Source: Aquaspirillum serpens DSM 68
GTDB taxonomy: Bacteria; Pseudomonadota; Gammaproteobacteria; Burkholderiales; Aquaspirillaceae
Assembly (NCBI RefSeq): GCF_000420525.1
Contig: NZ_ATVC01000024.1
Span: forward strand, 1-34,525
DNA: 34,525 nt
Direction: 5' to 3'
Below, one piece after another: positions 388 to 31,180 of the stretch. A program made the translations under genes and the position numbers. The first letter of the stretch is position 1; every line of letters starts with the position of its first letter. The notes beneath the pieces are model-generated. The model was not told where the DNA came from. It searched no databases and saw only the letters and a list, made by a program, of their open reading frames with translations.

Positions 388-1167
388 TTAGAATGCCGGC
401 ACAATCGCGCCCTGGTATTTCTGTTGCAAGAACGCTTTGACATCGGCACCAGTTAAGGCCGTCGCCAGTTTCTTCAGTGCTGGGCTGTCTTTGTTATCGC
501 TGCGGCTAACCAAAATGTTGGCGTAGGGTGATTTTGCTCCTTCGATAAACAGCGCATCACGAGTCGGCACCAGCTTGGCTTCTAAAGCGTAGTTGGTATT
601 GATCAAAGCCAAATCGACTTGATTCAAGATGCGTGGCAAGGTCGCTGCTTCTAACTCAGTGATTTTCAGCTTTTTCGGGTTGTCGGTGATGTCTTTTGCT
701 GTTGCCAACAAATTGCTTGGATCTTTCAGCTTGATTAAGCCTTGTGCTTGTAACAACAACAAAGCACGGGCACCGTTAGAAGGATCGTTTGGAATCGCTA
801 CTCGTGCGCCTTCTTTCAAATCTTTGGCCGCTTTCACTTTTTGTGAATAGGCGCCAAACGGTTCAACATGAACCGCCGTTACCGTTACCAGCGACGTGCC
901 TTTGTTTTTATTAAAGGTGTCGAGGTAGGGCTTGTGTTGGAAAAAGTTGGCATCTAACTTTTTCTCTGCCACTTGTACGTTAGGCTGCACATAGTCGGTA
1001 AAGACCTTAACTTCTAATTCCACACCTTCTTTAGCCAGCTTGGGTTTCACAAACTCCAAAATTTCAGCGTGAGGCACGGCAGTCGCGCCCACACTTAATT
1101 TTTCAGCATGGGCATTCACAGCAAAAGCCGCGACAACGCTAGCTGCAATCAGACTGATTCGTTTCAT
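388..1167 (-). CDS. metQ: D-/L-methionine ABC transporter substrate-binding protein MetQ
   Basis: This 259-residue protein of the NlpA/MetQ family binds methionine in the periplasm and delivers it to MetNI. The N-terminus is a Sec signal peptide (positively charged MKR, hydrophobic core, AHA cleavage site near residue 21). The mature part carries family motifs such as VGATAVPHAEIL, FFQHKPYLD and the RALLLLQAQGLI stretch. Unlike E. coli MetQ there is no lipobox cysteine, so it is probably a soluble periplasmic protein. The ATG has AAAGGA eight bases upstream. It is the last gene of metN-metI-metQ, 12 bases after metI, the usual order. Confidence 0.95.
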   Translation of the reverse strand: MKRISLIAASVVAAFAVNAHAEKLSVGATAVPHAEILEFVKPKLAKEGVELEVKVFTDYVQPNVQVAEKKLDANFFQHKPYLDTFNKNKGTSLVTVTAVHVEPFGAYSQKVKAAKDLKEGARVAIPNDPSNGARALLLLQAQGLIKLKDPSNLLATAKDITDNPKKLKITELEAATLPRILNQVDLALINTNYALEAKLVPTRDALFIEGAKSPYANILVSRSDNKDSPALKKLATALTGADVKAFLQQKYQGAIVPAF

Positions 1168-1179
1168 TTTTAATATCCT

Positions 1180-1842
1180 TTATTTCCGAGTGAAATGAGC
1201 AACGGCTTTATCGCCTGCCCACTGTAGAACCTGAACTAACACGATCAAAATGAAGACCGTGACGACCATCACGTCGGTTTGGAAGCGTTGATAGCCATAG
1301 CGCACGGCTAAATCCCCCAAACCGCCGCCACCAATCACCCCCGACATCGCAGAATAACCGACCAAACTAATAGCGGTTACGGTGACAGCCGCCAACAACC
1401 CCGGCAAGGCTTCTGGTAATAAAGCCAACCATAAAATCTGCCACCGTTGAGCCCCCATCGCTTGGCAAGCTTCGATAATGCCCTTGTCCAAATCGCGCAA
1501 CACGTTTTCAACTAAGCGTGCAAAGAAGGGCACTGCTGCTGCGACTAAAGGAGGGATAGCTCCTTCTACACCAATTGAGGTCCCGATAAGCCACACGGTG
1601 AGCGGAATCATCACGATCAATAAGATGATGAAAGGCAATGACCGCAACACATTCACCACCAACGATAAGACCCGATATAGCCCTTTATGGCCTTGTAGCT
1701 GCGGGCTACTTGACCAAAATAGTAAGACACCAAGCGGCAAGCCCAATAACACGGTAAAAAATAATGAAACGCCGGTCAGAATCAGCGTTTCCTGTGTGCC
1801 CTGCCACAGCTCGGCAAGGTCAAGATTCACAAATTCAATCAT
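1180..1842 (-). CDS. metI: Methionine ABC transporter permease MetI
   Basis: This inner-membrane permease of 220 residues has about five hydrophobic segments. A BPD_transp_1 coupling loop is seen around IEACQAMGAQRWQILWLALLP (the EAA motif, which docks on the ATPase), and SAMSGVIGGGGLGDLAVRYGY is a hallmark of MetI-type permeases. The length is close to E. coli MetI (217). Its ATG overlaps the stop of metN in an ATGA, indicating translational coupling. It forms the membrane channel for methionine together with MetN and MetQ. Confidence 0.96.
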   Translation of the reverse strand: MIEFVNLDLAELWQGTQETLILTGVSLFFTVLLGLPLGVLLFWSSSPQLQGHKGLYRVLSLVVNVLRSLPFIILLIVMIPLTVWLIGTSIGVEGAIPPLVAAAVPFFARLVENVLRDLDKGIIEACQAMGAQRWQILWLALLPEALPGLLAAVTVTAISLVGYSAMSGVIGGGGLGDLAVRYGYQRFQTDVMVVTVFILIVLVQVLQWAGDKAVAHFTRK

Positions 1843-2861
1843 GGCCGTTTTCCTTGTTGCAGAATATCAGTGCGAACACCGCGTGCCGCGAAAGCGTCTT
1901 GTAAGGCGGTGATATCGACTGTGTTGGCCTGCGCCACTTCAACAATCAGTTGACCGTAGGGGGTGTCTTTAATCCGGCCAATAGTACCGTGCAGGATATT
2001 GAAGGCAATGCCCCACTGCTGCGCTAACTCGTGTAATAACGGTTGGTGTGTCGTGGCGCCGGTAAAGCTCAGTCGCAATACCGCACCTTGGGCCATTGCC
2101 AATGCCGCTTGCCATTCTGCTTCGTTTTGTCCACCACTTTCCGCCAACATACTTTGCGTCGCAGGGTGGGCGGGATGGAGGAAAATCTCACTCACAGGGC
2201 CCAATTCCACAATTTCGCCGGCATCAATCACTGCCACTCGGTCACAAATGCTTTTAACCACATTCATTTCATGGGTGATTAACACAATGGTCAGCCCCAT
2301 GCGGCGGTTGATATCCAACAACAGTTGCAAAATGGCTTGTGTGGTTTGTGGATCTAATGCACTCGTGGCTTCATCGCACAGCAATAATTTCGGGGCATTG
2401 GCTAATGCCCGTGCAATCCCCACCCGCTGCTTTTGTCCACCCGACAGCTGTGCCGGATATTTATGGCGGTGATCTTGTAGGCCAACCAATTCTAATAACT
2501 GTTGAATGTGCTGTGGATCGATAGGTTTTTTAGCAAGTTTGAGTGGAAAGACAATGTTTTCTTCCACAGTACGTGCCATCAACAAATTAAAGTGTTGAAA
2601 CACCATACCCGTTTGTTGACGTAGGTTGACCAAACCTTGTGCGTCTAATGCGGTGATGTCTTGACCATCGATTTCAATGTGACCGCTGCTAGGACGTTCT
2701 AACAGATTCAAGGTACGAATAAGGCTACTTTTACCGGCACCGGAACGGCCAATAATGCCAAAAATTTCCCCCCGACCAATTTCCAAGTTGATATCGCGCA
2801 ACGCAGTGACGGCGCGCCCATCGACTTGATAGGTTTTATAGAGGTTGCGGATACGAATCAT
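1839..2861 (-). CDS. metN: Methionine ABC transporter ATP-binding protein MetN
   Basis: This 340-residue ABC ATPase powers methionine uptake. It has Walker A GRSGAGKSS (about residue 38), the signature LSGGQKQRVGIARAL (about 140), Walker B LLLCDEATSALD, and an H-loop ITHEM. The C-terminal ~90 residues, with HGTIGRI and YGQLIVEV, form the NIL/ACT-like domain that senses methionine and inhibits transport in the E. coli protein. It is the first gene of metNIQ. A terminator-like hairpin and a leader ORF that overlaps its start lie directly upstream, suggesting attenuation control. Confidence 0.96.
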   Translation of the reverse strand: MIRIRNLYKTYQVDGRAVTALRDINLEIGRGEIFGIIGRSGAGKSSLIRTLNLLERPSSGHIEIDGQDITALDAQGLVNLRQQTGMVFQHFNLLMARTVEENIVFPLKLAKKPIDPQHIQQLLELVGLQDHRHKYPAQLSGGQKQRVGIARALANAPKLLLCDEATSALDPQTTQAILQLLLDINRRMGLTIVLITHEMNVVKSICDRVAVIDAGEIVELGPVSEIFLHPAHPATQSMLAESGGQNEAEWQAALAMAQGAVLRLSFTGATTHQPLLHELAQQWGIAFNILHGTIGRIKDTPYGQLIVEVAQANTVDITALQDAFAARGVRTDILQQGKRP

Positions 2862-2947
2862 AAGCTACCCAAAAAAAGAAGCCGCACGCGGATCACACAG
2901 TGCGGCACAGACTGTAACAGAGTCGCTAAAGACAGAAAAATGCTCAT
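2858..2947 (-). CDS. Possible 29-codon leader peptide in front of metN
   Basis: The frame opens with an ATG at 2947, begins MSIFLSLATLL, is rich in Leu and Val, and ends with a TGA that overlaps the metN ATG (ATGA). It runs through the GC-rich hairpin and T-tract at 2871-2906, so a translating ribosome would disturb that structure. No good Shine-Dalgarno sequence precedes it, and it has no Met codon besides the start, so methionine-codon stalling in the trp/his manner is unlikely. It may be a coupling ORF or chance. Its 4-base overlap with metN is the main argument for it. Confidence 0.35.
   Translation of the reverse strand: MSIFLSLATLLQSVPHCVIRVRLLFLGSL
2871..2906 (-). terminator. Terminator/attenuator hairpin 10 bases before metN
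   Basis: On the minus strand a perfect GCCGCAC-N12-GTGCGGC stem is followed at once by TTCTTTTTTT and then, ten bases on, the metN ATG. This is the form of an intrinsic terminator. There is no room for a promoter between the T-tract and metN, so any transcript reaching metN must read through it. It is therefore better read as an attenuator than as the end of an upstream gene. Confidence 0.6.
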
Positions 2948-2977
2948 TAGTGCTTTTTTTATAAAATTTTGCACTAA
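2947..2977. promoter_or_regulatory. Inverted repeat TTAGTGC-N17-GCACTAA in the metN leader
   Basis: Perfect 7-base arms lie at 2947-2953 and 2971-2977, with an A/T-only spacer between them. The repeat sits exactly where the leader ORF begins and where the Cys-rich ORF upstream ends. It could be a regulator operator, or in RNA a hairpin. Its AGTGC arm could also pair with GCACT in the attenuator stem as a weak alternative structure. No known regulator is recognised. Confidence 0.35.
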
Positions 2978-3192
2978 GGCTTAGGTGTAAAGCGGCAATT
3001 GTACTGCAAGCGATTCAGCAAGTGGTCATCACTTTGAGCCGAGAATTTCTCCGTTTTTTCATCTGCTTGTCGCCGTAGGATCTGTCTGATGAAAACAGAG
3101 CAGTTAGGGCATTGCCAACAGTGAAACGGCCAGAGGTGGTTTGGGCAGGTGTAGAAGAAGCGTGTTTGGCGATGTTGCGGTTTGACCAGCAT
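2974..3192 (-). CDS. Possible small Cys-rich protein, 72 residues, function unknown
   Basis: This frame lies in the otherwise empty 433-base gap between metN and the cytochrome gene. It has Cys in a C-x8-C-x2-C-x2-C arrangement around residues 16-31 (CPNHLWPFHCWQCPNC), which could bind zinc, followed by a basic and polar tail with KTEKFSAQSDDHLL. The composition looks protein-like, not random. Against it, there is no clear ribosome binding site at the ATG and I do not recognise a family. A perfect inverted repeat spans its start codon. Confidence 0.35.
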   Translation of the reverse strand: MLVKPQHRQTRFFYTCPNHLWPFHCWQCPNCSVFIRQILRRQADEKTEKFSAQSDDHLLNRLQYNCRFTPKP

Positions 3193-3201
3193 GCGTCAAA
3201 C
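3180..3201. promoter_or_regulatory. Perfect palindrome GTTTGAC-N8-GTCAAAC
   Basis: Seven-base arms lie at 3180-3186 and 3195-3201. The repeat spans the start codon (3190-3192) of the possible Cys-rich ORF. It could be a dimeric repressor operator or an mRNA hairpin hiding the start. There is no other evidence for a role. Confidence 0.35.
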
Positions 3202-3255
3202 AAGCGCCAAGGGGAAATGGTATAGAAAGCGGCAAAGCTATTTTTGGTCCAAGCC

Positions 3256-3277
3256 GCCTCATCGTGGGAGATGAGGC
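3256..3277 (-). terminator. Hairpin after the cytochrome gene, weak terminator candidate
   Basis: The stem GCCTCATC/GATGAGGC (3256-3263/3270-3277) with a 6-base loop starts 18 bases past the cytochrome stop codon. No T-tract follows on either strand, so termination may be partial or the structure may only stabilise the mRNA 3' end. Confidence 0.4.
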
Positions 3278-3294
3278 AGCGTTTGGTCAGACAA

Positions 3295-3600
3295 TTACTG
3301 AGCCAAGACCCATTTGACTAGGGTTTTCGCATCAGCTTCGCTGACGTTGTTCGCTGGCATTGGAATTTGACCCCAAGTACCCACGCCGCCTTTGATCACT
3401 TTCTGAACCAGTTTGGCTTCAGCGTCTTTTTGACCTTTGTATTTAGCTGCCACTTCTTTGTAGCTTGGGCCCACCACTTTCTTATCCACTGCGTGACAGG
3501 ACATACAGGCTTTTTGCTGTGCCAGTTGCAGATTGGCAAAAGCAGGGGCAGCAGCAAAACTTGCGCTCAGGGCAGCAGCAATCAGCATTGCTTTTTTCAT
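3295..3600 (-). CDS. Periplasmic class I c-type cytochrome (c551-like)
   Basis: This small monohaem electron carrier of 101 residues is exported by a Sec signal peptide (residues 1-22, cleavage after AFA). The haem attachment motif is CMSCH at residues 32-36, and the likely axial methionine is Met81 in QIPMPANN, as in cytochrome c551/c8. The start is taken as the ATG at 3600, which has GGAG eight bases upstream; in-frame codons further up are less convincing. Such proteins shuttle electrons between the bc1 complex and terminal oxidases or nitrite reductase. The partner cannot be told from here. It stands alone, downstream of yggT. Confidence 0.9.
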   Translation of the reverse strand: MKKAMLIAAALSASFAAAPAFANLQLAQQKACMSCHAVDKKVVGPSYKEVAAKYKGQKDAEAKLVQKVIKGGVGTWGQIPMPANNVSEADAKTLVKWVLAQ

Positions 3601-3636
3601 TTTTGAATTCTCCATAAACAAGGAAGATCACCATCG

Positions 3637-3654
3637 AGCGCTAAGCTTGGCGCT
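3637..3654. promoter_or_regulatory. Near-perfect palindrome in the cytochrome c upstream region
   Basis: The minus strand reads AGCGCCAAGCTTAGCGCT, an 18-base palindrome with a single mismatched pair, centred about 45 bases before the cytochrome start codon. It may be an operator or a leader hairpin. No T-run follows on the minus strand, so it is not a clear terminator for yggT. Confidence 0.3.
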
Positions 3655-3695
3655 TTTTGCCGGATGATGTTTTGCGTTAACGCAACGTGTTGCCA

Positions 3696-4280
3696 TCAGG
3701 ATAACACTCGCGTTAACAAATTGAACACGCTCTGTTCAATCCATGTCACTGGTAGCATCAGGATCACTTGAATCAGCAATAACAATGCCAGTGGAGACAA
3801 ATCAACACCGCCAACGTTCAAACGGCGGAAAGGTTGTAAAAATGGGGTGGTCAGACGATCGAGCAGAGGGGCCAGCGGATTATAAGGACTGACCCAAGAC
3901 AAAATCGCCTGTACGATCACTGCTCCCATCAATAGATGCAGCGAAGCCCGAAACAGTTCCAGAATCGACAATAAAGCCACACCTAGCCAAGTGGGGGGGG
4001 CGGTGAAGTTAAAGGGATAAGGCGACAACACCAATAACACCGATGTTGAACACAGCGATACCAACAGCGCCAGTAACAACGTTGCGCTGTCATAGTGTTT
4101 GATACTGGGCACCCAACGTCGCAATGGTAAGACGGCAAAATTGGTGAGGGAAACGACAAATTGTACCAGTGGGTGTTGAAAAGGGGCGCGCACGAGCTGT
4201 AAATAAAAGCGCAACAACACCACCAAAACAAACAAATCGCTGACCGTTTTGAACAAAAAACGCAGGGTTTCCAGCAGCAT
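3696..4280 (-). CDS. yggT: YggT family integral membrane protein
   Basis: This 194-residue protein has two YggT repeats, each a pair of hydrophobic segments flanking an (A/S)P(F/Y)xxP-like stretch (PFQHPLVQF and SWVSPYNPLAPLLDRLTTPFLQPFRR). The family is found near proC and yggS in many bacteria, and its biochemical role is not settled. The ATG at 4280 overlaps the TGA of proC by one base (TGATG), which fixes the start and points to coupling. It contains a run of eight C on the coding strand (3993-4000), a possible slippage site. Confidence 0.88.
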   Translation of the reverse strand: MLLETLRFLFKTVSDLFVLVVLLRFYLQLVRAPFQHPLVQFVVSLTNFAVLPLRRWVPSIKHYDSATLLLALLVSLCSTSVLLVLSPYPFNFTAPPTWLGVALLSILELFRASLHLLMGAVIVQAILSWVSPYNPLAPLLDRLTTPFLQPFRRLNVGGVDLSPLALLLLIQVILMLPVTWIEQSVFNLLTRVLS

Positions 4281-31121: not shown

Positions 31122-31144
31122 CCGTAGTGAGCATTTACGGTGTG

Positions 31145-31180
31145 ACGGGCTGTTACTGATTCAGTAACAGCCCGTTTTTC
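31145..31180 (+). terminator. Intrinsic terminator of the atp operon
   Basis: ACGGGCTGTTAC pairs with GTAACAGCCCGT (31145-31156/31164-31175), with a short loop and TTTTTC at the end. It separates atpC from glmU, which must have its own promoter in 31181-31216; no clear boxes are seen there. Confidence 0.93.

Follow-up and report, generated by a model that had tools for sequence, protein, structure and literature searches.

The leader of the metNIQ operon of Aquaspirillum serpens DSM 68 carries a GC-rich hairpin followed by a T-tract which, judged from its sequence, is a good candidate for an intrinsic terminator. A metN leader that ends in a terminator recurs in the family of this bacterium, and the probable SAM-sensing part of the sister leaders was not found in the leader studied here. 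The window, i.e. the whole stretch of 34,525 nucleotides that was analysed, is contig C24 of a 2.61 Mb genome (G000). On its minus strand the genes follow in the order proC, a frame without a family match that we take to be YggT-like, a small cytochrome c and then metN-metI-metQ. When MetN was compared with genome contigs, none of the best 80 matches exceeded 60% identity. The features of this locus are the following:

388-1167, minus strand: metQ, matching TIGR00363 (MetQ/NlpA family) above the curated cut-off
1180-1842, minus strand: metI, matching NF008049 above the curated cut-off
1839-2861, minus strand: metN, 340 aa, first gene of metNIQ, with NCBIfam TIGR02314 as top match (E 2.1e-105, under the curated cut-off)
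2858-2947, minus strand: 29-codon ORF with an ATGA overlap with metN, probably untranslated
2871-2880, minus strand: terminator T-tract TTCTTTTTTT, 7 or more T in 9
2881-2906, minus strand: candidate intrinsic terminator stem-loop GCCGCACTGTGTGATCCGCGTGCGGC, dG -14.6 kcal/mol
2947-2977, minus strand: inverted repeat TTAGTGC-N17-GCACTAA (arms 2977-2971 and 2953-2947, 17-nt spacer), at chance level
3246-3294, minus strand: large hairpin, identified by eye, directly 3' of the cytochrome c stop codon and followed by AAAAATAG, hence without a T-tract on this strand

The first-pass annotation of this DNA had reported a GC-rich hairpin with a T-tract shortly before the metN start codon, and both are indeed present on the strand of metN, with 9 bases between the end of the T-tract and the ATG (2861). 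The hairpin has the layout GCCGCAC-U-GUG-loop-CGC-GUGCGGC (2906-2881, minus strand), that is, a GC-rich stem-loop directly followed by a U-tract in the sense orientation. The stem is separated from metN by 19 nt and from the stop codon of the upstream cytochrome c gene by 390 nt. Dinucleotide shuffles of the last 130 nt produced a terminator of any strength in 130 of 400 cases, a terminator with dG ≤ -12 and at least 7 T in 9 in three, and one as strong as the real terminator in a single case (-14.8, the best obtained). Partition-function folding was applied to 32 candidate transcripts (eight 5' ends combined with four 3' ends), and the terminator formed with a pairing probability of 0.95-0.99 in the 24 that contain the whole stem. 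The fold of the last 137 nt as a whole is only slightly more stable than that of shuffles (z = -1.35; 19/200 equally good), and a cruder consensus scan of 2700-3700 returned three terminator-like sites versus 1.6 (sd 1.0) in shuffles, with no clear excess. A terminator close to a gene start is not rare in the window, because three other starts of 34 have one with dG ≤ -8 within 110 nt. Strong terminator-like hairpins were seen at 31144-31176 (plus strand) and 17053-17034 (minus strand), each no more than 110 nt ahead of a gene start (31217, plus, and 16986, minus); these are probably the terminators of the preceding genes.

We propose, giving the idea about an even chance, that the metNIQ leader contains in this element an intrinsic 5' terminator with partial read-through into the operon. 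Transcripts starting upstream of 2906, either at a metNIQ promoter or by read-through from cytochrome c, would mostly stop near 2871 and yield a short leader RNA, and only the read-through fraction would become metNIQ mRNA. The hairpin is thus predicted to terminate transcription and hence to lower the expression of metNIQ. The level of read-through might be set by a fixed leaky throttle or by a trans-acting factor, since neither a cis antiterminator nor a known riboswitch nor a translated leader peptide was detectable; the sensor may have been lost or replaced, may act in trans or may be absent. According to Naville and Gautheret (2010, PMC2965389), a putative attenuator is a 5' terminator in the same orientation as the gene, with a distance ratio not above 1:1 and within 300 nt. 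The distances to metN and to the cytochrome c stop codon given above agree with this rule, and the window terminator resembles such attenuators in orientation, distance ratio and the 300-nt limit, differing from them in that no sensor was identified.

Several further observations argue for a 5' terminator: the strength of the hairpin and its rarity in shuffles, the lack of a good promoter-like site before metN, the agreement with the above rule (PMC2965389), the presence of all four family leaders among the six of 46 metN leaders that have a terminator, the SAM-II-type element that precedes the terminator in three sister leaders and the absence of MetJ from the six family genomes. Against it stand the lack of an antiterminator that beats shuffles, the 40 of 46 leaders that have no such terminator and a promoter-like site near 2904 that would leave a weakened hairpin, though sites as good are common in shuffles.

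It had been claimed that metN transcription must pass through the hairpin. One part of this statement stands: there is no good promoter-like site after the hairpin, a weight matrix giving no good promoter from 2928 down to metN (best score 2.7). The strict form is likely rather than certain, as a weak site overlaps the stem. This top upstream site, TTTTCT-17-TACAGT (score 8.1), would start transcription at about 2904, inside the stem, and such a start would cut the hairpin plus T-tract from -15.8 to -9.2 kcal/mol. A second site, TTTACA-17-AATTTT, lies at the AT-rich segment and would give a start at about 2956. Neither exceeds what shuffles produce (122/300 contain a site as good as the best one), and a simple consensus scan of 2700-3700 found no promoter. 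We consider it most likely, on these sequence scores, that metN transcription passes the full hairpin.

These promoter scores also bear on the possibility that the hairpin is the 3' terminator of an upstream unit, either cytochrome c with an extended 3' UTR or a so far unannotated small RNA starting near the AT-rich 2991-2950, metNIQ then being transcribed by read-through or from a start within the stem, without regulation. We hold this to be possible, if doubtful. The large hairpin right after cytochrome c has no T-tract, a start near 2956 would give an RNA of about 85 nt and transcripts begun near 2904 would escape part of the hairpin, all of which would fit; the hairpin is nevertheless 390 nt from cytochrome c versus 19 nt from metN, the scores of both promoter-like sites are not above those of shuffles, and any metN transcription through the hairpin would make it an attenuator anyway. 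Examined as a gene, the spacer 3236-3018 had no Pfam match and only two weak matches (E 0.007 and 0.0096), each with internal stops, and a DNA search with 3240-3013 returned just two weak partial matches, in plasmids. Thirty bases of the spacer (3089-3118) are 90% identical to a gene start in one other genome of the order (E 2.1e-4), presumably that of a glutamyl-tRNA synthetase, which we named from a protein motif. Given the 399 genomes searched, this match is probably due to chance.

To place the 5' terminator among the relatives, we compared 46 metN leaders, drawn from all those of the 399 genomes of the order, the window genome included, in which MetN matched at E ≤ 1e-100. In the other genomes, the metN start was derived from the position of the first residue in the alignment. 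For G258, G370 and G267 this yields an unusual start codon, and their offsets may be off by a few codons. A terminator with dG ≤ -11 and a stem ending within 80 nt of metN was found in six leaders: those of G000, G001, G002 and G004, which are all the leaders of the family in the set, and those of G026 and G351. Weak candidates (about -7) occur in three more (G178, G239 and G258). Within the genus of G026 (g25), the terminator is present in one of six genomes and missing from G116, G154, G190, G220 and G249. A second, more distant metN of G002, outside the 46, lies close behind another frame and has no terminator. Thus a terminator before metN is not general in the order and recurs in the family of the window genome. 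The family comparison covers five other genomes in three genera, none of them congeneric with the window genome, and a MetI match at E ≤ 1e-30 is missing from two of the six family genomes. The leader DNA of the window gave nothing below E 0.2 except itself in the six family genomes, and only six short matches of 21-33 bases in the 399 genomes. On both counts we rejected the idea that the leader is a repeated or mobile element. As nothing resembling the leader turned up in the sister genomes, the hairpin has no support from covariation, and the terminator sequences of the window and sister leaders are unrelated.

The sister leaders of G001, G002 and G004 contain a SAM-II-type core and then a terminator. 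In addition, the second metN of G032, a genome of another family, is preceded by a SAM-II-type element and then by a GCCCGCC/GGCGGGC hairpin with a short T-run, which the terminator finder used here did not call. The elements located directly upstream of metN in the three family genomes and at the second G032 metN are:

L006:1337-1394, SAM-II-type element
L007:2576-2633, SAM-II-type element
L008:2552-2611, SAM-II-type element
L202:761-819, SAM-II-type element

With the Rfam model RF00521 (SAM_alpha), the copies before metN score below the gathering score (26.5 bits in G002, 20.5 in G001 and 20.7 in G004), and a copy before another gene in G005 scores above it (38.2). We also consider the results of a covariance model of this element, R1, which was built from five sequences, of which two do not differ in that stretch, so that its E-values are rough. 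Under strict filters, R1 placed the element in at least 219 of 300 genomes of the order and nowhere in the window genome. Over 52 loci (the 46 metN leaders and six others), its matches were in G001, G002, G004 and at the second metN of G032. A genome search with RF00521 did not list the metN copy of G002 that another search with RF00521 found.

The same models found no such element in the window leader. It gave no SAM-II match with RF00521 at E up to 10 and no match with R1 with the filters off, the result on which a diverged SAM-II element in the leader was rejected. The whole window genome had no match with RF00521 or R1, both of which scored part of the candidates. The core CGCCGATTTGA...GCTTGC(G)GGCG...GCTAAAGCG is not present in the leader, and the earlier remark that the leader does not resemble a known SAM riboswitch agrees with the lack of any Rfam SAM riboswitch match. 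In the window, no Rfam family reached its gathering score, which leaves no T-box either, and a permissive scan of 2800-3320 returned only weak ArcZ and sR17 matches. The window terminator is like SAM-II (SAM_alpha, RF00521), and probably like the 'metXZ' element discussed below (PMC4239095), in that a terminator stands just before a methionine gene; it differs from SAM-II in having neither a SAM-II match nor an antiterminator above chance. As for other methionine genes, the main metX leader of the window genome showed no shared element by eye, and R1 found nothing near either metX-like gene. The two metX-like matches, at G000:C51:13123-14181 and G000:C7:44743-45774, stay under the curated cut-off with 457 and 225 bits, and the weaker one seems, by eye, to be close behind another frame. 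Regulation by MetJ is not indicated, as no MetJ protein was found in the six family genomes; among 14 control genomes, E. coli was positive.

It is unlikely, in our estimate, that metNIQ exchanged the SAM-II-type attenuator of the sister genera for an undescribed sensor (an RNA ligand, a small RNA or a protein) acting on a new terminator at the same place. If true, this would be a natural replacement of the sensor in a transcription attenuator, on genes for which, according to Leyn et al. (2014, PMC4239095), beta-proteobacteria have no regulator known so far. We regard as quite unlikely a regulated attenuator with a diverged or replaced SAM-responsive RNA, whose terminator would be a descendant or functional replacement of the SAM-II expression platform of the sisters. 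The same gene, the same place and a similar architecture in G001, G002 and G004, as well as the element with its terminator-like hairpin at the second metN of G032, would speak for it, set against the failure of either model to find a match in the leader or the genome, the unrelated terminator sequences and the relationships of the protein itself: the window MetN shares 65% identity with the MetN of another family versus 55-56% with those of its own. Since MetN is closer to that of another family, the operon may not share the history of the sister leaders. In summary of the distribution, a SAM-II-type element with a terminator or terminator-like hairpin stands in a small number of metN leaders of the order, and the window operon has a terminator without a detectable sensor. 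Attenuation of metNIQ thereby becomes directly testable in this family; the window element alone is a modest finding.

The literature offers likely counterparts of the SAM-II-type element. Leyn et al. (2014, PMC4239095) describe a conserved pseudoknot-forming element, 'metXZ', followed by a terminator, before metX and metZ of beta-proteobacteria and keep it apart from SAM_alpha; according to them, metNIQ of beta-proteobacteria is under no known methionine regulator, the authors' search for one having been unsuccessful. In a second paper (PMC3521395), Bp2_Cand287 is located upstream of methionine genes in most genomes. Both papers probably describe the SAM-II-type element, and we infer, from its description in the text, that 'metXZ' corresponds to the element seen here. 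In the literature on SAM-II, riboswitches or attenuation in connection with metN or metNIQ, no report of a SAM-II-type element before metNIQ was visible. Rfam may under-report SAM-II-type elements of beta-proteobacteria, as RF00521 falls below its cut-off on the metN copies of the family, as opposed to the many genomes of the order with an R1 match. Three metN leaders (L008:2485-2628, L151:1486-1623 and L153:1447-1584) gave matches to RF02424 (Bp2_287 'sRNA') below its gathering score, all antisense to the SAM-II-type element. Read as its reverse complement, the RF02424 consensus resembles a SAM-II-type element with its terminator, and to judge by this resemblance the orientation of that family in Rfam may be wrong. 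In G005, two SAM-II-type elements stand in tandem ahead of a small frame (L150:1403-1575), separated, on inspection by eye, by a terminator-like hairpin.

A cis antiterminator was sought as a partner for either arm of the terminator. Within 150 nt upstream, shuffles contained equally good partners for the 5' arm in 219 of 500 cases and for the 3' arm in 386; over the whole spacer, these numbers were 370 and 428 of 500. Applied to the 5' arm in the SAM-II-type leaders of G004, G002 and G032, the same test gave 64, 67 and 9 of 500, and the best partner was each time the conserved GCGGGC of the SAM-II-type element. The test can therefore detect such pairing, if weakly. For the other terminator-bearing leaders, the 5' arm gave 28/500 in G351 and 223/500 in G026. 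An alternative pairing that excludes the terminator, as in an attenuator, was thus not found in the window leader, where an antiterminator could still act in trans.

The inverted repeat reported at the start of the short ORF is present (TTAGTGC/GCACTAA), yet shuffles contain a repeat of at least 7 bp in 577 of 3000 cases (19%). We consider it very unlikely that the repeat serves as a DNA operator flanking a promoter within the AT-rich spacer, with a repressor rather than RNA regulating the operon: it borders AT-rich DNA in which a TATAAA word occurs, and the promoter-like TTTACA-17-AATTTT lies there, as might be expected of an operator, while the repeat is at chance level. A regulon operator was rejected on the distribution of the pattern with 6-bp arms, which occurs at three places in the genome versus four for the reversed control and has no match in the five other family genomes. 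The other two places lie within open frames, one of which looks like smpB.

In ribosome-mediated attenuators of amino-acid operons (trp and his type), a short ORF precedes the terminator, and the window leader is like them in this respect. The 29-codon ORF described by the first-pass annotation exists at 2947-2858 and ends in the ATGA overlap with metN, and as stated there it has no Met codon after its start. It differs from the trp and his type in that it lacks a ribosome-binding site and any methionine codon beyond the start, and in that no antiterminator exceeds chance, so that the translatable ORF with sensing codons expected of a leader-peptide attenuator is missing. Its duplex with the anti-Shine-Dalgarno string amounts to -0.1 kcal/mol, versus -3.8 for metN and -5.4 for metI and metQ; the values for cytochrome c, proC and yggS are -6.4, -10.3 and -2.3 kcal/mol. 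About 10% of shuffles (297 of 3000) contain an ORF that ends in this overlap and is 29 codons or longer, and the only Pfam match of the ORF is below threshold (E 0.068). The absent Shine-Dalgarno sequence, the chance-level length and the weak Pfam match led us to discard the ORF as a gene; it is probably untranslated, and the earlier claim of a translated leader peptide is not borne out.

Control of the terminator by translation of this ORF or by competing pairing of a repeat arm, as first suggested, is highly improbable: the ORF and its overlap are real and the letters of the two arms do match, set against a repeat and an ORF at chance level, no Shine-Dalgarno sequence, a start codon whose first base is also the last base of the inverted-repeat hairpin, and the energies of the folds. 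The competing AGTGC:GCACT structure has a probability of 0.0-0.01 in every folded transcript with both segments, and forcing it costs 13.7 kcal/mol (-18.5 versus -32.2), for which reasons of energy and ensemble probability it was rejected. When transcribed whole, the inverted-repeat hairpin forms with a probability of about 0.96-0.98 alongside the terminator; as both form together and the competing pairing is close to zero, the two structures are compatible rather than alternatives.
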